Assembly (NCBI GenBank): GCA_022495995.1
Contig: JAFEMH010005427.1
Span: 1-64,000 of the forward strand
DNA length: 64,000 nucleotides
From: Adenophora triphylla var. japonica
Lineage: Eukaryota; Streptophyta; Magnoliopsida; Asterales; Campanulaceae
Direction of reading: 5' to 3'
Shown piece after piece: positions 2,988 to 32,188 of the stretch (positions are counted from its first letter, which is position 1; every line of letters begins with the position of its first letter). The notes beneath the pieces are model-generated. The model was not told the DNA's origin. It did no database searches and saw nothing but the letters and a program-made list of their open reading frames with translations. The translations under genes and the position numbers were made by a program.

Positions 2988-3169
2988 CGGGGTTTTATCA
3001 ATAAATTCTTAAATATGGTGTAATTTACCAAATAAAAACATTACATTTCAAATTCTACCTTCCCCCGGGTTGAAATCAAAACTCTCATAGAATTTCTAAC
3101 CCTCTTTATAATAATTTTAAATACCGAAACTGCCCTCACCTCTCAAATACGTGACCATCTTAGTTCAGC

Positions 3170-3412
3170 AACAGTTCTCCTTTCCGTCTCGAGCTTGTCG
3201 GCACAACTACGATTCCTCTTTTCTGATTCACCTCCGACGGCTCCCAATCCGGACATTCATTGGCCACAACATCGATCTGAACTCCTAGCACCTGTTGCTC
3301 CAGAACGAGAATTATTGTGCTGCTCATATCGCGATTGATGAAGGAAGGGACGAGATGTGCACTTGCTCGTAGCTGCCATCATGACTTCCATGGAAGGTTA
3401 TGGCAAGGCATA
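3170..3412 (+). other. GC-richer segment inside MULE-1, possible captured host sequence
   Basis: This block is richer in G and C than its surroundings and resembles a UTR or exon (ctcctttccgtctcgag, cctccgacggctcccaatcc). The motif gacggctccca recurs in the UTR region of the MAD2 MULE near 29290, so at least the first half belongs to the MULE family itself. No protein could be recognised. Confidence 0.35.
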
Positions 3413-3605
3413 TAGGGTTGTTCAAAAAATTCGTGTAACCGGATCGGACCAATAGAACCGGATCAGACTAGTAAAAACTGGACCAAATTAATAGTATTGG
3501 TCTGGTCCTGGTTCCAAATTTTTATGGAATCGATTATTTGATCTGATCCTGATTTCGAAAAAATATAAACGATCCTGGACTGTAACCGGACCGATTATCT
3601 ACATA

Positions 3606-3608
<3 letters not shown>

Positions 3609-3652
<44 letters not shown>
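3609..3652. repeat. (AT)n microsatellite
   Basis: About 22 uninterrupted AT units inside the hAT element at 3413. Confidence 0.95.
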
Positions 3653-3655
<3 letters not shown>

Positions 3656-3756
3656 TCTCTCACGGCACCACCATCTATCTCTCATCGATGGCGCAGCTCT
3701 CTCATCGACGGCGCAGCTGCAGCAGAAGAGAATATATGCCTCTCTCAGTTTTTTGC

Positions 3757-3894
3757 GTTCTCATGGCTTCCAACCTGGAGGTCATGAGTTCGATCCCCCC
3801 AGAAGTTAGAGGGAAGGCTTTCTCTCCCTAGGATTTATCTCCTAGGCGCTTCTGTGCGTGCATGTGTGTGTGTGTGTGAGTAGTGAAAAAAAAA
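3757..3894 (+). mobile_element. Possible tRNA-derived SINE
   Basis: A B-box-like GAGTTCGATCCC lies at 3786-3797, about 25 bp after a possible A box (tggcttccaacctgg). A TG-rich run and A9 close the segment. No convincing target duplication was found. Confidence 0.4.
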
Positions 3895-4312
3895 TTGCAG
3901 AACATTCGACCTCTGTTTTTTGTTGTTCCTACATTGATTTATATTTCTTTTTTTTTTGTTTCTTTGTTTTGTGTTTAATTTTTTTTTCTATTTTATGGTT
4001 AAATTTGAAGGTGAACAATTAACGTTTAATGGTGTCTATTTTGTGGTTTGAATATTAAATATTTGTGACAATTTTTTTGTTTATTTAACTAGTGATAATA
4101 CTTAATTGAATATTTGTTATCGTAAAAAATTATAATATATTGTAATTTATAGAATCGACGGAACCGGGCCGAAATCAGACCAATGGGAGCGATCCTATAA
4201 TGTAATGGTCTGGTCCTGATCCTATATTTTTACAGAACCGAAGTATTGGTACGATCCTGATTTTTTTAAATTTTGACAAAATTCGGACCAATCCGAACTG
4301 TGAACACCCCTA

Positions 4313-4862
4313 ACGGCATATCTATAGTATAGTGAGAGGGGTCACTTGACCCCCTCATATTCCAATTTTTTTTCACTTTACCCCCTTTTTTTTGTGAGCA
4401 TTTATATTTACTTCAATTGACCCAGTCGGATTTTATAGTATAACCCCCTCAAATTGTGTATTTATATTTTATGCTCCCCTAAATATTTATTTTTTAGATT
4501 TGTTCCAAAATAAATGTCTATATTCTAAAAAACTTGATCCCCAAATATTTTTTTACTAATTTTTTTAATCATATTTCATTACCTAATTACAAAACGAAAA
4601 GTTTAAAAAGTGAATAGCAAGAATATTTATATATCATTGTTATTAAATTTTATAAAAGATACACATTTTTGGAATGCCTCTTAATTAGATTTTTTATTTG
4701 TATTCATTAGGTATTAGTGATTAGTGATTTAGTTATATTTTAATTTGACATTTGTTAATGGTCGTTCGCCTGGATATATACTTTTTCACATAACTTTTGC
4801 GGCCTAGTTAATTTTTATCTTATTATATTTTGGGATCGTAGGCTTAGATAAATTTTAGAGTA
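4313..4862. other. AT-rich non-coding stretch in MULE-1
   Basis: AT-rich with short pyrimidine blocks (ttgaccccctc, tttacccccttt). The same style of sequence resumes at 5690-5960 beyond the solo LTR. No gene is visible. Confidence 0.5.
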
Positions 4863-5518
4863 TGAATGGAATAAAAGTGACGGGCTAGGTCCAACATAAG
4901 AAGTCCAGTTATTCAGACATTATTGCCACCACATCCTTGGTAGGTCAGCCCAATTATTATAAAGCCCACGGCCCAGCATCAAAGATCAGTCGACCTAGCT
5001 CATTGTCCGACCTCCGTGGTTCCGACCTAGCTTTGTCCGACGTACGATCCATATCTCATACGGGCATTATCCGGCTATATCATTCAGTCAGGTAGACCTA
5101 GACCCATGCAGGCGACCTCGACCTACAAAGAATACATCGACCTACATAGTCTTAATACGCCTACAACTCTTTTCATAACGGAAGTCCTACAAATTAGGAG
5201 TTATTTACGTACATGATCTCTTACACAATATGATCCATGATTCTAGAAATTTCATACAATCCTACTACAATTATATCTCTTATCAACGCCTATAAATACC
5301 TTACAACATCCACGGTTTTGAGGTAATTGCTATTTGTTATTCTGAATCTCTTGTTCATTATAATTTATCAGCTTATACACCATACTTACTCTCACGCCCG
5401 TGGGTCTAAGCCGGTGATCATTCTGGCTAGTCGTGGGTTCCTTGTTTCAGGTCAAAAGCTAGGAGATCAGTCCTGATTGCTGGACGTAGACTGATTCAAC
5501 ACGTTTCTTGCGGCATCA
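4863..5518 (+). repeat. Solo LTR, gypsy type
   Basis: It starts TGAATGGAATAAA and ends CGGCATCA. The flanks are gagta and gggta, 4 of 5 identical. A TATA box (tataaata, 5291-5298) is present. No primer site, purine tract or coding sequence adjoins it, so this is a recombined solo LTR related to the LTR of element E. Confidence 0.75.
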
Positions 5519-5576
5519 GGGTAGTTGTTTGTTTAGACCACCTGCCTAAATAAATTTAAACTTATATAGAGGCTTT

Positions 5577-5684
<108 letters not shown>

Positions 5685-6189
5685 CATTATTATTGGAATT
5701 CATAACTATGAAAAATAGGTTATACATGCAATATTATAATTTTAGATCTTCATTTTCCCCCTAGTCTTAAAAGTTGACCCCCTACTCTTAAAAAATGTCT
5801 CTTTTCTTAATGAATACTTTAAGCTATTACAAGAGTGATAATTGAAAATATTTTTATTAATGACTACTTTAAATTATTAAGTGGCAAAATTTTAACCCCC
5901 TTCACTTAAATTATGGGTTGTGGAACTGAGGTATATGAGAGAGATAAAGCTTGATGAAAAGTGGAGATGGCCAAAATGGGCTCAAATTCGTGGGAGGTCC
6001 GCACGGACCGTTGCCCGCGGCCCGTTTGGCCCCGGCCCGTCCAGCCCGTAACCCGTCCAGCCCGCTTTTCATACGGGACGGGCTTGGATCAAGGAAGTCC
6101 GCACGGACCGGGCTTTGGCCCGCGGATCAGAAGATCCGTTTGGTCTGTGGCCCGTTTGGCCCGTTATCAAAGAAGTCTGCACTGACGTA

Positions 6190-6315
6190 TTTGAATTCTA
6201 AACCCTAAACCCCATATTCTAAACCATAAACCCTATATTCTAAACCCTAAACCCTATATACCCCATACCCTAACACCTATACCTTAAATTATATTTATAC
6301 CAATACCCTAAAGTA
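6190..6315. repeat. Degenerate telomere-like (CCCTAAA) repeats
   Basis: Repeated 'taaaccctaaacccc', 'aaaccctatattc' and similar variants of the plant telomere unit. A second patch lies at about 6645-6830. They flank the Stowaway at 6318, so one patch was split by it. Confidence 0.6.
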
Positions 6316-6317
6316 TA

Positions 6318-6604
6318 CTCCCTCCGTCCCGGCGAAAGAGCCACAAAATTTGTCCGACACGCAAAATAAGAAATGTGATGTAGGAAAGAGAAAAAATTTA
6401 AATGTTGTGAGTATGAAAAATTAAATAGGAGAGAGAATGAGTGGGAGGTGATGTAAGAAAGAGAATGTTGTGAGTGTAAAAGTAAAGTAGGAGAGAGAAT
6501 GAGTGGAGAGAATAGTGATTTAAGGTTTCCTTTTTGGGAAAGTGGCTTTTTAAATGGGACGCCCAAAAAGGAAATAAATGGCTCTTTCGCTGGGACGGAG
6601 GGAG
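6318..6604. mobile_element. Stowaway-type MITE
   Basis: Terminal inverted repeats CTCCCTCCGTCCCGGCGAAAGAG and its complement, TA duplicated on both sides. Confidence 0.9.
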
Positions 6605-7074
6605 TATACCTCTATATCCTAAACCTTATAATATATGCCACTCACTAAAACTAAACCCTATATATCCCATACCCTAACCCATACCTTAAATTATATGCCA
6701 TATACAATTATAACTTATACATTATACCATATACCATAAATCATTTATCATAAACCTTATACCCTAAACCATTTATCATATATCTTATACCTTAAACCCT
6801 ATATTACATATCATAAACTCCATGCATATCATAAATCATTATCATATATGTAAAGAAATGTTTACTAATATTATTGATAATTGAATATTACATAATAGTA
6901 ATAATTTAGAGAAAAATATTTAATAATAATAATAATAATAATAATTTAACTATTAGAAAATATTAATAATGCTTTTACTTTACACCAACCCCTAAAGTAT
7001 TTACCATATTGCTCAAACTGAAAAAAAAAAAAAAAAACTATAAATCTTACTCTAGGACGTAGGGAGTAAAAAAC

Positions 7075-8262
7075 GTCTAAAATATTATTTTCTAGTCAAT
7101 AAAAAAATAAAAATAAATAAAGGATAGTTCGTCCCTCTTTTCTTTTATATACTTTCATTTGTTTATCTTTTTTCTATATTTTTTTCTATACATTTTTGTA
7201 AAAAAAAATTACTAATAAATATGTCTAAAATATTATTTTCTAGTCAATAAAAAATTAAAATAAAATAAAAAATAAATATAGGGTAGTCCGTCCCTCTTTT
7301 CTTCTATATACTTTCATTTGTTTAGCTTTTTTATATCTTTTTTTATATACCTTTTTGTAAAAAAAAAAATCACTAATAAACAAAGTCTAAAATATTATTT
7401 TCTAGTCAATAAAAAAATTAAAAAAAATAAAGGATAGTCCGTCCCTCTTTTCTTTTATATACTTTAAATTGTTTAGTTTTTTTCTATCTTTTTTTATATA
7501 ACTTTTTGTAAAAAAATCACTAATAAACAAAGTCTAAAATAGTATTTTCTAGTCAATAAAAAATTAAAATAAAATAAAAAATAAATACTCCCTCCGTCCC
7601 ATTAATAACTTCACCTTTTACCCAAAATGGCGTTCCGTTAGAAGCTTCACCTTTCCTTTTTTGGCAAAGAATCTTTACTATTTCCTCCACTCATTCTCTC
7701 TCCTATTTCACTATTACACTCACAACACTTTTCAAATTTACTATTTCTTCCACTCATTCTCTCTCCTATTTTACTATTACACTCACAACATTTTCTTCAC
7801 CCTTAATTTACGTGTCAGACCTAAAATGGTGAAGTAATTACTGGGACGGAGGGAGTATAGGGTAGTCCGTCCCTCTATTTTTCTATATACTTTCATTTGT
7901 TTAGCTTTTTTATATCTTTTTTTTTATATACCTTTTTGTAAAAAAAAATCACTAATAAACAAAGTCTAAAATATTATTTCCTAGTCAATAAAAAATTAAT
8001 AAAAAATAAAAATAAATAAAGGATAGTTCGTCCCTCTTTTCTTTTATATACTTTAAATTGTTTAGTTTTTCTTCTATCTTTTTTATATACCTTTTTGTAA
8101 AACAAATCACTAATAAACAAAGTCTAAAATATTATTTCCTAGTCATTAAAAAATTAAAAGAAAATAGAAAATAAATATAGGGTAGTCCGTCCTTCTTTTC
8201 TTTTATATACTTTCATTTGTTTAGTTTTTCTATCTTTTTTAATATATAAAACAACTAATTTT
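7075..8262. repeat. Minisatellite, six copies of about 147-162 bp
   Basis: Each unit contains gtctaaaatattattttctagtc, then aaaggatagtccgtccctcttttc, then ctttttgtaaaaa. Units start near 7075, 7223, 7385, 7532, 7964 and 8122. The fourth unit is interrupted by the Stowaway at 7588. Confidence 0.85.
7588..7855. mobile_element. Stowaway-type MITE inside the minisatellite
   Basis: CTCCCTCCGTCCCATTAAT end and its inverted partner (attactgggacggagggag), TA on both sides. It splits one minisatellite unit, so it is younger than the array. Confidence 0.9.
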
Positions 8263-8584
8263 CTTATGTCTAAGTGATTTTATATTTTTTTAAAAAAAAT
8301 CTTATTAAATACTAAATTTCTTTTTATTTTTTCATATGTTTTCTGATATTTTCCATGTTTTTTCTGATTTTTTTAAAAAGATAAAAAATGAAATAAAAAA
8401 TAGGAAAACCCGTTTGGCCTGTGGGTTGGTCCGTACGGACCAAACGGGCTGGCTTGGACATCCAAATTGGGATGGGCCAGGCCGGGTTTGGGCCTGTTTC
8501 ATCAAACGGGCTGACGGGCTTCAACCCGTCCGCCCGCGAATTGATTCGTACGCGTCGAATCGGGATGAGCCGGCCCGTTTGGCC

Positions 8585-8782
8585 ATCACCGATGAAAAGA
8601 AAAGGAAGAAGAAAGATAAATTTTTTTGAAAATATTAATAAAGAGGCTGAAAAGTCCTTTTTCGAAAATGTTATAAATAATTTATCACCGATGAAAAGAA
8701 AAGGAAGAAGAAAGATAAATTTTTTTGAAAATATTAATAAAGAGGCTGAAAAGTCCTTTTTCGAAAATGTTATAAATAATTT
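8585..8782. repeat. Direct tandem duplication, 99-bp unit
   Basis: Two nearly identical units start atcaccgatgaaaag at 8585 and 8684. The first seven bases overlap the right end of the hAT at 5962-8591. The unit is 33 codons long, so open frames across it show a repeated peptide that is not a real protein. Confidence 0.9.
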
Positions 8783-8788
8783 ATAGTA

Positions 8789-9065
8789 CTCCCTCCGTCC
8801 CAATAGAAGCTTCACCAATTATCTAAAAGGGCGTCCCGTTAGAAGCTTCACCTTTCCTTTTTTGGACATAAAATATTATTATTTCCTCCACTCATTCTCT
8901 CTCCTACATTATTTTAATACTCACAACACCATTATAATTTATTATTCCCTCCACTAATTCTCTCTCCTATTTTCAAATTACACTCACAACATTTTTTTTT
9001 CCCTCCCATTACCATAATTCCCGTGCCCAAGAAAAATGGTGAAGCAATTGATGGGGCGGAGGGAG
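8789..9065. mobile_element. Stowaway-type MITE
   Basis: CTCCCTCCGTCCCAATAGAAGC end and inverted partner (ttgatggggcggagggag), TA on both sides. Confidence 0.88.
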
Positions 9066-9264
9066 TATTTTTTTTGGCTTTTGAAATGTGGATTACAGCT
9101 ATAACTGCAGTCTACAAGGAAATGGTTTTATAACAGCCCAACAATTGCTTTGTTAAAAAAAAAGGCCTACTCTCATTTTCCATACAGAAAAAAAAATAGT
9201 TTTTTTTTTTTTAGGAACTTGAAAGTTTGTAAGTTTCTAGATGGTTCAGATGAATAATGATGTA

Positions 9265-9548
9265 CCCCTCCGTCCCGGAACAATCTTCACACTTTTCCTT
9301 TTGGGCATCTCAAAACTTACTTTACACATTTAAAACTTACCTAAAATGGAAATGAATTTTTACTATTCCCTCCACTCATTCTCTCTCCTACATTATTTTA
9401 ATACTCACAACACCATTATAATTTACTATTCTCTCCACTCATTCTCTCTCCTATTTTATTTTCACACTCACAACACTTTCAATATAATACTCCCTCCTTA
9501 AAACCAGTGCAAACAGTGTTTGTGAAGATTGTTCCGGGACGAAGGGAG
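9265..9548. mobile_element. Stowaway-type MITE
   Basis: CCCCTCCGTCCCGGAACAATCTTCAC end and inverted partner ending gaagattgttccgggacgaagggag, TA on both sides. An extra internal ctccctcc copy lies at 9490. Confidence 0.85.
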
Positions 9549-10310
9549 TATTGATAAATAATTTTTTATTTTAAACAACTGATAAATTAAGTCGTATGTT
9601 GTTTAAAATGTATGTATGACTGCTTTCGTTAATTCTTATCTTTTAACAAATTTGATTTCTTGATTAATTAAAGGGCATGCGATATCAGACAATTGTGAAA
9701 TCACAGAATCGTGGAATCAATTTATCTATATTATTTTTAATGTTATTTGACAACAAAATCATGTCATTCCTAAGGCTTTATGAGAACAAATTCGTGGTGA
9801 TCAATTGATTTCTCAATTGTTTAAAGAGCAATGACATCACACAATTGCGAAATTAATTTGACATCACACAATTGCGAAATTAATTTATCAATGTTATTCC
9901 CTAGGCTTTATGAGAACAAATTCGTCGTTATCGTTAAGCAACTGAGAAATTGAGTCATCAATTGTGAAAAATCGATATATGAATTTATCAATTTTTGTAC
10001 TCAAATTTGAACAAATGAAAAATGAATATATCAGTTTTATACTCACTCAGGTATAATGAAAAATGATTTTCTCAATCTTTTACAAATGAAAAATGAAATT
10101 CTTTATTTCTAAAATTTGAATCATATCATGAGTGTACATTTTTTATTTGTATTGATGATACGATTAAAACGATTTTCAAAATTATTTTTTCGATTATTAG
10201 ATATTGAAATATTGCATTTTAAAATTTTGAGGAAAAAAAAAAGAGAAAAGAGAGAAAGAGGGAGAGAGAATGAGAAACGTTGACTAGGCCCAGGGCATAG
10301 CGCCAGCTAG
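9549..10310. other. Right subterminal part of MULE-1
   Basis: AT-rich, with short repeats (acatcacacaattgcgaaattaattt twice near 9840-9890). The motif gaaaaatgaatatatcagttttatac also occurs near the right end of the MAD2 MULE (31296-31376). No gene is visible. Confidence 0.5.
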
Positions 10311-10462
10311 CTGACGGAGGGTGTCCACGTGTGAGTGTTGTGAGGTGGGGGGGAGGGGCATTTTGGTTCAACGAAAATTTAAGGACTTTTTGTCAAATTT
10401 CAAAAATTTCTGTTTTATTGATATTTTTTTTATTACTAAGAAATTTATTGGTCAAAACCTCT

Positions 10463-11297
10463 TATTTATTTTGGGACAGCTTAAAATACGATATTTATTA
10501 TGGAGGGAAAGTAGGATACATATTATTATGCATATAAGCCTAATCCGCCAATTCATCAACAACAAAATGGGACACTAAAGTCTTGTTTGGCAGAAAAGAA
10601 TTGATGCTAGTGGCATCTAGTTGAGAAGAAAAATCCTACTTCATTCAGGGGTTGACATATAAGTAAACCCCCAAATTCCATTACAAAAAGTAGATAAGAA
10701 TCCAAATGCTAATTAGATTTCTTCCAAGCCAAATAATTTTGTTGGTGTTTAATTCCATTAGAAAAAGTAATCCAGATAAAGCCGTGGCCAAAACGCAACG
10801 ACTTGTACAAAGTAAAGTTAAAATGTGTAGCTTTCAAGGTCAATTTCTTCAAATATTGCAATGGGGGCCAAGGAAGACTTGTTTGTTTAGCCGTTTGATA
10901 TTAAATCCATCATGTTGTAGAGATTTTTCATTGGTAATTTTTATTTTTCCAAAATTAATATTATACTATTTTAATTATAACGTTTTAGCAACTCTGTTCA
11001 TAAAGAGTTACTTTGTGGTAAGAGTCAAAATTCACAATGTGTGAAATCTCGCATTCAATTCCTTCCTTTCTATGTCTTTAAGAACATCATTATAAATTAT
11101 CTATAGTATAAATGGGGGATGTCTTTGCTACAGTTCTTTGAACAGTAGCAAGTGACGAAATCCCCATTTTGCCCTCATACTTTTGTTCCTTTCCCATTTT
11201 GTCCTTAAATATTTTTTTTTTAATTTAAAATTTTTTTTTTTAAAAAAATCACGTGGCCTTGGACACGAACATGTACTAGTAAAGGGATGTACTAGTA
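10463..11297. other. AT-rich flank without recognisable genes
   Basis: Open frames of 68-112 codons here have biased AT-rich composition and no recognisable motif. I see no gene, only unique-looking AT-rich DNA. Confidence 0.4.
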
Positions 11298-28702: not shown

Positions 28703-28989
28703 CTCCCTCCGTCCCAGCCTAGTGTGAACCAAAATATTGGGCACACCGATTAAGGAAAAGTAAGAAAGAGAAAAAGTGGAGAGAGAATGTTGTGAGTGTA
28801 AAAGTAAAATAGAAGAGAGAATGAGTGGAAGGAATAGTTAGGAGAGAGAATGTTGTGAGTGTAAAAGTAAAATAGGAGAGAGAATGAGTGGGGTAAATAG
28901 TGAAGATTCCCTTTCATTTTGGGCAGTTCACACTCGGCTGAGACAGACCAAAAGGGAAATAAGTGTACACTCGGCTGGGACGGAGGGAG
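28703..28989. mobile_element. Stowaway-type MITE
   Basis: CTCCCTCCGTCCCAGCC end and inverted partner (ggctgggacggagggag), TA on both sides. The internal stretch aggagagagaatgttgtgagtg is duplicated. Confidence 0.9.
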
Positions 28990-29234
28990 TACTTTGCTTA
29001 TCATACAAAATAGTTTAATTAATTTTTTTGTACAAAAGTATCATGTTATAATTTTAAGGGATTTTTACCAATAAGTCCATGAGATAGTGTGGAATTTACC
29101 AATAAAAACACAACATTTCATATTCTACCTTATGATCCTTGGGTTGAAATCAATAACCCTGTAGAGACCTTACTATAATTGTAAATGGCAAGACTACCCT
29201 TGCCTTCCCACACGTACGCGTCTTCTCTTCCGCT

Positions 29235-29459
29235 CCTCCCCCAAATCGTTTCAAACCCTAGCCCGTCGGTTGAGGCGTTTGTAAGGCCGATGACGGCTCC
29301 CACTTCCCCCACTTCTTGATTGCTTCGTTGATTTTGCAAAACCCTAGTTTTTCACATTTGTAATTTTCGTCTTTGTTCCAGATTTTCGTTTTCACGAACC
29401 CGCCTGTAACTTGTTCGATAAAATTCATCACAGACGAACCCCAATATATTTTGTAATAG
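29235..29459 (+). promoter_or_regulatory. Likely promoter and 5' UTR of MAD2
   Basis: A GC-richer, pyrimidine-rich stretch with 'aaaccctag' motifs (29256-29262 and 29339-29345), typical of promoters and leaders of plant genes expressed in dividing cells. The first half resembles the subterminal region of MULE-1, so part of the leader may come from the transposon. Confidence 0.4.
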
Positions 29460-30872
29460 ATGGCTTCGAGAACCGCAACCAAAGACATAATCACTTTACG
29501 TGGATCCACGGCTATAGTTAGCGAGTTCTTCGGTATGGATTTGATTTGATCTTTCAGTATCTTTGATTAGGTTTTAGGGATTTGGAGAACCTTTGACTGA
29601 TTTTTTTTTATGCAAACCCTTTTTTCCAGGATATGCTGCAAACAGGTCAGAACCCTAACGAGTTTTAATTTAATTATTTTAATTTTAAATTTTGTATTCC
29701 CTCCGTCACAAATTGAATGACCAAGAGCAAATTTGAAATTTTTTTGGTCATTCATTTTGGGACAGAGGGAGTAGTTTGTTGGCTTGGATTGAAATGTAAT
29801 TTTTTTTATTGCAAAAATGTGTAGTATTCTGTACAATCGTGGGGTTTATCCCGAAGAGAGTTTCGGGAAGGTGAAGAAATATGGACTCCCTTTGTTGCTG
29901 TCTCAGGATGAGGGTGTCAAAACCTTCTTTGCAAATCTTAATGCTCAGCTTTCTGGTAAATTTTGTAGTCTGTGTATGATTGTTTTAAAATAACTTTATA
30001 ACAAAAATTGTGTGTCCATGAGAAAGACAGAATTGGTGTTCGTTGAATGCTTGTAGTTGTTTGGTTGTTTGCTTACTTGGTGTCTATACTTTATCTTTGC
30101 ATAGAGTGGCTTGAAGCTGGGAAGTTGCAAAGGGTGGTTTTGGTAATAATGAGCAAGTCCACCAATGAAGTCCTGGAGAGGTGGAATTTCAGTATAGAGA
30201 CTGACCGCGAGGTTGTTGAGAAAGGGTAAATTTCGCAATAGACTTTCTTTATCCTTGCAGATATAAACATTTTCAAATATATTGTTTGTTGACATTAATG
30301 AAATCTTCTGTTTGATTTGATTTTCAGTGAGTCAAGGGAGAAGAGCGATAAAGAAATCATGAGAGAGATTCAAGCAATCATGAGACAGATAGCATCCAGC
30401 ATTACTTATTTGCCTTGCCTTGACGAACCCTGTAATAATCTCGTCGATATTTATCAATCAAAATTCGAATAATGTGGACGGGCTTCTGAAGTTTACACCA
30501 AAAAAAAAAAAAAAAAACAAAACAAAACAAAGCAAAAAACTAATGCGTTGTTTTGTTTGGTTTGTTTAAACCGCAGGTGTGTTTGATGTGTTAGCATACA
30601 CTGATACTGATGTAGCAGTCCCATTGACTTGGACTGAGAGTGATCCAAAACTTATCGATAATCCCCAGATGGTGAAATTGCACTCATTTGATACTAAGGT
30701 AACATATGTATTGGCTAATTTAAGTTGAAATGTCAGTTTTTTAAGATAAGGTTGACTTTTGGTGTCAAAAAAAGAAGATAAAAGTTGACTTATTGGATTA
30801 TTTTGGTTTTTGCAGATACACAAGGTTGATACTCTGGTTTCGTACAAGAATGATGAATGGGATGAGCAGTAG
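29460..30872 (+). CDS. MAD2: Mitotic spindle checkpoint protein MAD2, complete, seven exons
   Basis: MAD2 is a HORMA-domain protein at unattached kinetochores. It binds CDC20 and helps hold back the anaphase-promoting complex until chromosomes are attached. Exons: 29460-29532, 29630-29645, 29825-29955, 30105-30225, 30328-30431, 30577-30698, 30816-30872; all introns are GT-AG. They sum to 624 nt (207 residues plus TAG), against about 209 for Arabidopsis MAD2. The product starts MASRTATKDIITLRGSTAIV and ends VDTLVSYKNDEWDEQ. Recognisable blocks are the N-terminal FFGYAANSILYNRGVYP, RWNFSIETD, the ITYLPCLDEPC loop, and the C-terminal 'seat-belt' region (DTDVAVPLTWTESDP). Exon 2 is only 16 nt, and intron 2 holds a 75-bp Stowaway. 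No stop or frameshift is present, so the copy may be functional. The gene lies wholly inside a MULE with a 9-bp target duplication. Confidence 0.97.
29697..29771. mobile_element. 75-bp Stowaway-like MITE in MAD2 intron 2
   Basis: Inverted ends ccctccgtcacaaattgaatgacca and its near complement, TA on both sides. It can fold into a near-complete hairpin. Confidence 0.8.
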
Positions 30873-31176
30873 AACGAGTATATTTCGTCCCCATGCTTGT
30901 TCGTTTATGTTTTCTATGTTCTATTAGGATATGATGTGAATCATTGATTCACATTTTGTTAATGGGAGTGAGAAATACGATTATGTGTGTTGTATTTGAA
31001 CCTGTATTCATATCCATGAATGATAATGATGAATTTGAAGCAATTGTTTTGCTATGTAATCTACTTTCGGGTGTTAAGCTTTCAAATAGTGCATTAATCA
31101 TCCTCTCGTCTTGGAGTTCTGATTTCACTATTCTTGCCACTTTTTTGTTGTTAAACACTTGTGATTGTACTATGTA

Positions 31177-31182
31177 AATAAA
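31177..31182 (+). terminator. Polyadenylation signal, probably of MAD2
   Basis: AATAAA about 305 nt after the MAD2 stop, in T-rich sequence. It lies inside the MULE, so the transposon carries the whole transcription unit. Confidence 0.45.
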
Positions 31183-31547
31183 GACTTTCTTTTAACTTGC
31201 AATTGTGATTACGCAATTAATTTATTATTTCTTTGTTCAACTTAATTAAGACTGCTTACCTGTCTTCAAAAGTAGGTAATCAGATTAATTAGAGGTGTGA
31301 AAAATTGATAAATGAATATCTCAGTTTTATACAGCTGTGAAAAATTGATAAATGAATATTTCAGTTTTATACAACTGTCAAATCAAACAACTGTCAAATC
31401 ACAGAACTGTAAAAAATAGAGTGACATGGGTAAAATGATCCAGAGACTTATTGACTAGATTTGAAAATGACAGGCTTTAAAGGTAGTATTCATTTGGCTA
31501 AAGGACTTATTGGTCAAAGCCTCTAATTTTAATTCTAAATAAAATTA

Positions 31548-31902
31548 CTCCCTCCGTCCCAGACCAAGAGTCCTACTTTCCTTTTTGGTCCGTCCCAGAC
31601 CAAGAGTCCCTTTCCTTAAATGAAAAGTTTTCCATATATTTATACCCTTATCATCTCCATATATTTACAAAAAAAACCATTACTATTTCTCCCACTCATT
31701 CTCTCTTCTATTAAATATTATTAACTTTTACATTCTCTCTCTTATTCCCTACCACACATTTAACTTTTACATTCTCTCTCCTATTTCCTACCACACATTT
31801 AACTTTTACATTCTCTCACCTAAAATTTTCTACCCACTTTAAAAAAATTTATTAAGAAGCGTGAAATCCCCCCCGAGGACCCTTGGTCTGGGACGGAGGG
31901 AG
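31548..31902. mobile_element. Stowaway-type MITE
   Basis: CTCCCTCCGTCCCAGACCAAGAGTCC end and inverted partner (ggacccttggtctgggacggagggag), TA on both sides. An internal 'catttaacttttacattctctc' repeat occurs three times. It starts 15 bp beyond the MULE's right target repeat. Confidence 0.9.
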
Positions 31903-32188
31903 TATAATTTTAATGAAATTTGGTTATGATATATTATAATGTATATTTACATAAAACACTAACATTAAAATTTGTAAAATCATCGTAAATGTAAATGAAG
32001 TCGACTCACTCATTTTTTTTTCAATTTTTCTTACCGTATCCGACTGAAAAAACGGGTGTCGGGTACGGATTTCATACCCATGTCGGTGTCGTGTCAGACA
32101 CGCTTTAACATTGGATCATATCAACATCTATTATTCTTAGTTAATAAATTCAATTTTGGTACTTGATTTTTAATTCCTTGTGCTCCAG

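Follow-up and report, generated by a model that had tools for sequence, protein, structure and literature searches.

A whole MAD2 gene as probable cargo of a multicopy Pack-MULE in Adenophora triphylla var. japonica

Introduction

In rice, Pack-MULEs were reportedly described by Jiang in 2004. Accounts of those of rice and other plants are given in PMC8277862, PMC13317346 and PMC9168764, and in the available parts of these sources they consist of MULE ends and a 9-bp target-site duplication (TSD) around host sequence, are multicopy and show no transposase inside, all of which they share with the element reported here. What they carry elsewhere is mostly gene fragments, to which the accessible text of PMC9168764 adds “functional genes or fragments”; as a rule such fragments lack function once captured, although expression and signs of selection are seen in many (PMC13317346, in part). 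Pack-MULEs are seen as shuffling mostly fragments, and whether working genes can be moved is an open question.

In Drosophila, Ssk-FB4, as presented in the available part of PMC8277862, resembles our element in having a nearly complete host gene, 9-10 bp TSDs, a MULE assignment by its authors and multiple copies, but ~200 bp of the 3’ UTR are missing from it, it is polymorphic among lines and its parental gene still exists, whereas our element includes leader and AATAAA and no donor was found for it. KI-MULE / ULP1-like is likewise a plant MULE family with a captured protease gene or domain (PMC8277862, PMC13317346); from the portions of these papers at hand, it is likely not functional, repressed and heterochromatic according to the former, and its conservation suggests an advantageous function according to the latter. 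Its cargo is protease-like, whereas ours is a checkpoint gene of the host that encodes a normal, conserved protein. The Arabidopsis Pack-MULE AT1G49715 has likewise been transposed and is bounded by MULE ends and 10-bp TSDs, but its TIRs are long (short here), and the available part of PMC2869330 does not describe it as a complete checkpoint gene or a multicopy family. Judged by titles and the beginnings of abstracts, the Pack-MULE and Mutator-like papers searched include no plant case like the one below, although rice may offer a precedent, and the sole match pairing “mutator-like” with “MAD2” was the Oxytricha genome.

Here, we analyse a stretch of 64,000 nucleotides (the window) in which, unlike in typical Pack-MULEs, a whole intron-bearing gene lies between MULE ends; its frames appear constrained at two sites, and the searches revealed no unlinked donor. 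We put at roughly 93% the probability that a multicopy Pack-MULE captured MAD2 as an entire gene and now carries it in at least eight insertions, two of them intact sites, because the contigs with exon 1 share the left end, TSDs flank the insertions and related empty sites exist. A whole intron-bearing checkpoint gene would thus have moved repeatedly, with two sites constrained and a non-mobile copy not found, so that one can test directly whether a DNA transposon has relocated an important gene.

Results

Ends, duplication and gene of the window element

The features of the two elements, with window coordinates and strand, are as follows.

29049 to 29057 (no strand): left copy of the TSD, TAATTTTAA, found on contig C2336 too
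29058 to 31523 (+): Pack-MULE with MAD2, 2466 bp, from its ends, TSD, homology to el2 and genome matches
29058 to 29224 (+): left arm of the MULE, including its left terminus and a TATAA at 29174, from homology to window 2988-3161 and genome matches
29225 to 29459 (+): captured MAD2 leader with one 9-codon upstream ORF at 29290, homology to el2 not significant
29460 to 30872 (+): MAD2, 7 exons, 207 aa, from splice sites, HORMA and PDB match
29460-29532, 29630-29645, 29825-29955, 30105-30225 (+): MAD2 exons 1-4
30328-30431, 30577-30698, 30816-30872 (+): MAD2 exons 5-7
29695 to 29773 (no strand): small MITE-like inverted repeat within intron 2, shared with C2336, C20 and C2068
31177 to 31182 (+): AATAAA polyadenylation signal
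31290 to 31400 (+): right-arm subterminal repeats, homologous to el2 (0/500 shuffles)
31432 to 31523 (-): MULE right end with terminus at 31523, colinear with the right end of el2 from base 1 (0/300 shuffles)
31524 to 31532 (no strand): right copy of the TSD, TAATTTTAA
2988 to 10462 (+): el2, same-family MULE without MAD2, with TSD TATTTATTT at 2979-2987 and 10463-10471

An earlier sequence-only reading had placed a perfect 9-bp repeat exactly outside ends that match as inverted termini, and its coordinates hold exactly: the two copies of TAATTTTAA (29049-29057 and 31524-31532) abut the element, and the tips GGGATTTTTACCAATAAGTCC and GAGGCTTTGACCAATAAGTCC, with ACCAATAAGTCC as common stretch, agree as inverted termini at 17 of 21 positions. 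The same reading named the AT-rich duplication as its weak point. The 9-mer is indeed locally common (5 occurrences on the + strand of the window), yet under an AT-matched null, drawn from AT-rich places of the window, p is 0.0002 for an exact, in-register 9-mer, or 0.0009 with a slip of ±1, so that a chance TSD at this element is unlikely. MULEs often have long terminal inverted repeats (TIRs). Here the arms resemble each other in inverted orientation over about 21 bp only, with a score reached by 2 of 300 shuffles, and the arm-versus-arm comparison with shuffles found no long inverted similarity; judged by its arms, the element would be a short-TIR type of MULE. No transposase domain was detected inside it: its other ORFs of at least 78 aa, 7 in number, have no Pfam match.

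The gene between the arms proved as complete as that reading had claimed, with all seven exons, correct splice sites, no lesion and a poly(A) signal (AATAAA at 31177). All junctions are GT-AG, and a 624-nt open frame closing with a stop encodes 207 residues. The protein contains a HORMA domain (4.6e-24), is identical to human MAD2 at 92 of 190 residues and has a PDB match at 1.3e-56. The TATAA at 29174 in the left arm stands ~50 nt ahead of the cargo and occurs in the arm of el2 as well. The inverted repeat in intron 2 (29695-29773) is presumably a Stowaway.

Delimitation of the arms by a same-family element

The right end of el2 at 10462 had been overlooked in the earlier reading; with it, the TSD TATTTATTT of el2 is identical at 9 of 9 bases. 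The left arms of the two elements are alike over 29063-29224 (0/300 shuffles, z 22), and the right arms are colinear for ~90 nt from base 1 (0/300 shuffles, z 7.5), with the deeper right-arm repeats also matching (0/300 shuffles). The resemblance to the MULE at 2988 noted previously is therefore borne out, but over 167 nt of the left end rather than 200 bp. Testing the element piece by piece against el2, homology on the left was found up to 29200 (three pieces, each 0/500 shuffles), while for 29201-29260 the score was reached by 50 of 500 shuffles; on the right, 31290-31400 gave 0/500 and 31400-31523 gave 1/500, and no piece within 30873-31289 was significant (48 to 457 of 500 shuffles). As homology to el2 is confined to the arms, the ~2 kb between them, i.e. 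the MAD2 transcription unit, is the cargo. On these alignments, el2 validates both ends of the window element.

The genome points the same way. The sequence-only reading had allowed that 29058 and 31523 might not be true termini genome-wide, and the opposite was found: in a search with the left arm (1,523 first-look candidates, 40 scored), 35 of the 40 scored matches begin at arm base 1. Among these 40, the 11 MAD2-bearing matches extend to base 167 at 87-100% identity, and the other 29 end at base 159 or before; the latter lie off the 17 contigs with MAD2 exons, bar one located elsewhere on C20. The right terminus is present at 6 of the 8 MAD2 sites and in el2.

MAD2-bearing insertions across the host genome

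The host genome (2.48 Gb, assembled in 8,432 contigs) was queried for further MAD2 copies, a check that the earlier reading had proposed. With the protein as query, all 78 candidates were scored, giving 54 exon matches on 17 contigs. With the HORMA profile, 26 candidates yielded 11 matches, and no more than four MAD2 contigs were listed; C161 and C5453, found by the protein query, are not among them. Since one search missed copies that the other found, copy counts are lower bounds. MAD2 exons thus lie on at least 17 contigs, 11 of which carry the MULE left end. These 11 all include exon 1, and conversely every contig with exon 1 (11/11) bears the same MULE left end.

The 11 contigs fall into 8 insertion sites, three of them represented by paired contigs (the window contig C5427 with C2336, C20 with C5453, and C2068 with C161) and five by single ones (C7657, C376, C5174, C2389 and C719). 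The surroundings of C5427 and C2336 align in pieces that are 90-99% identical, indicating the same site, and C2336 carries the insertion too. Homology among the MAD2 copies ends at the left terminus, beyond which the flanks differ. Both ends are present at 6 of the 8 sites, and five of these six have a perfect 9/9 TSD, all different: TAATTTTAA at the window site and on C2336, AAAAATCAA on C376, ATCTTAATA on C2389, TTTGGAATA on C5174 and TAATATTTT on C719. At C7657, where both ends are also present, the TSD bases are alike at 7 of 9 only. Duplications of 9-11 bp are characteristic of MULEs. These termini were placed by eye from 12-base tips and, except for C719, offsets of up to 3 bases were then scanned, with the best fit at zero offset. 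For C20/C5453 and C2068/C161, no right end was found in the DNA read. The five perfect, differing duplications at two-ended sites also confirm the family's termini, and the spread of MAD2 by transposition is seen directly in the duplications at these sites; the suggestion that the element had made MAD2 mobile thus holds at 8 insertion sites.

MULEs frequently land close to the 5’ end of a gene. This behaviour, together with a duplication that is AT-rich and locally common, would suit a MAD2 gene that is native at this place and flanked by two separate MULE pieces by chance. We regard such a coincidence as extremely improbable and reject it on the other insertion sites: the left arm joined to the 5’ part of MAD2 recurs at seven more sites, with different flanks and, at four of them, perfect TSDs. 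Copying of MAD2 into a MULE already resident at the window site is very unlikely as well. Gap filling of this kind has been proposed as a way in which Pack-MULEs arise (PMC8277862, in the part available), but the left arm and the MAD2 5’ part are common to all eight sites, from which it follows that the cargo moved as a unit; capture in place could account for the founder at most.

Six further contigs, C324, C1414, C28, C690, C672 and C1724, hold fragments only, and no MULE end was found on them within the roughly 3.1 kb read. Apart from fragments, the protein query found no MAD2 without a MULE end in the genome, bearing in mind that such searches can miss copies. On C324 (166292-169447) and C1414 (381045-384200), a piece of exon 3 is joined straight to a piece of exon 7, the middle being missing. 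A diverged, older group with the 3’ half of MAD2 (exons 4-7) is made up of C28 (926770-929907), C690 (99658-102801), C672 (270669-273809) and C1724 (228690-231845); its members are 82-92% identical to one another, have some flanks in common, show stops in 3 of 4 cases and have aligned blocks 73-87% identical to the window copy. Either an older capture or a decayed native gene could have left them. The MAD2 Pack-MULE on C719 (167700-172721) is ~5 kb long; upstream of its MAD2 leader it has an additional GC-rich stretch, which may be a second host fragment taken up by the element.

Related empty sites

Three of the insertion sites have related empty counterparts, in one case on one side only. 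For C5174, 40 of 40 scored matches to the joined flanks (791 candidates) cross the junction uninterrupted. For C161/C2068, scoring 40 of 533 candidates identified four paralogous places in which the flanks are 231-241 nt apart, compared with about 2.1 kb at the site itself; the sequence of one of the four places was inspected. For C20/C5453, C4830 has the left flank to its last base, followed by other sequence without a MULE end; the right flank was not found on C4830 (40 of 88 candidates scored). The left flank of C7657 is a repeat.

C2068/C161 was considered as the native locus, on the grounds that its right end is missing and that its codons 115 and 165 match other non-window copies. This was rejected because of the 231-241 nt spacing in the four paralogous places, which instead indicates an insertion whose right end was lost together with ~235 nt of target. 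By eye, we take this target to resemble an F-box/FBD-type gene; an 86-aa piece of it had no Pfam match.

Intact frames and substitution pattern

Six contigs, representing three sites, span all seven exons (C5427, C2336, C2068, C161, C20 and C5453), and four of them, at two sites, have an intact frame and intact splice sites (C5427, C2336, C2068 and C161). The third full-gene site is broken: on C20 MAD2 has lost an acceptor and has one stop and a 5-nt deletion, and on C5453 there is a frameshift in exon 5. The other five sites have lost most exons: exons 1-3 and part of exon 4 remain on C7657 and C5174, exon 1, exon 5 and part of exon 6 on C376 and C719, and exon 1 on C2389; among these five, translation covered C7657 only.

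The proteins of C5427 and C2336 are identical, with 4 synonymous and 0 nonsynonymous codons between them (P 0.003); as both contigs share the insertion, these changes postdate it, barring gene conversion. Branches were assigned by parsimony, taking C20 and C5453 as the reference; the neutral nonsynonymous fraction is 0.76, and samples are small throughout. The C2068/C161 branch has 6 synonymous and 0 nonsynonymous changes (P 0.0002), part of which may predate its insertion. On the window-site stem, 3 changes are synonymous and 2, at codons 115 and 165, nonsynonymous (P 0.09, alone not significant). Between the window and C2068, dN is 0.004 and dS 0.081, with differences at 12/624 positions in the CDS and 45/755 in introns. 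The two intact sites therefore show the substitution pattern expected of purifying selection. A tree of ten copies was made; among the three full-gene sites introns differ by about 5-6%, which suggests that MAD2 spread within a limited period.

Given the unbroken frames and this pattern, the two intact insertions, at the window and at C2068/C161, most likely supply the cell's MAD2. That the C2068/C161 copy alone works and the window copy is a functionless passenger seems unlikely: only the window site has the two amino-acid changes at codons 115 and 165, as a passenger might show, but none of the 4 changes between the two contigs with the window insertion is nonsynonymous, and the frame and all splice sites are intact on both. 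MAD2 acts in the plant checkpoint, according to the available parts of PMC4060054 and PMC9357983, and we infer the same function for the intact copies.

Model for capture and spread, and the native gene

In the mechanism that we propose, a non-autonomous MULE would have captured one whole MAD2, including leader, seven exons, six introns and 3’ region, between its arms. A single capture is suggested by the left boundary, i.e. the left arm and MAD2 5’ part common to all eight sites. The MAD2-bearing element would then have transposed to at least eight places, presumably driven by a transposase supplied elsewhere, and the window copy would be one complete insertion with both ends and the 9-bp duplication. 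Transcription may start from the MULE left arm or from the captured leader, with the TATAA as a putative driver of MAD2.

The native MAD2 gene has likely been replaced by a transposed copy, a reading that fits the MULE left end on all 11 exon-1 contigs. For the fuller proposition, in which the native gene is gone, the two constrained MULE copies supply MAD2 and the MULE arm adds promoter sequence, we see about even odds. Somewhat less probable, though a serious possibility, is a native MAD2 that still exists outside the assembly or was overlooked, the MULE copies being extra: the assembly is in thousands of contigs and the first-look filter loses copies such as C161 and C5453, but every candidate of the protein query was scored, the left end of the MULE is present on each contig with exon 1, and constraint, not free decay, is seen at two of the MULE sites. 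If replacement by the transposed copies is correct, an important gene has turned mobile, and its position and dosage would shift by transposition.

Other features of the window

Contig scans found no relatives in bacterial/archaeal and viral contigs. In the window there were no tRNA or Rfam matches, and neither 10 ORFs outside the MAD2 element nor 3 ORFs scanned inside el2 had a Pfam match. Tandem repeats, SSRs and MITE-like stretches are contained in el2 (2988-10462). Near the MAD2 element, the window contig has MITE-like insertions at 28703-28990 and 31547-31903, both absent from C2336. Further along, between 34000 and 53000, long retrotransposon-like ORFs in near-duplicate copies are discernible by eye.
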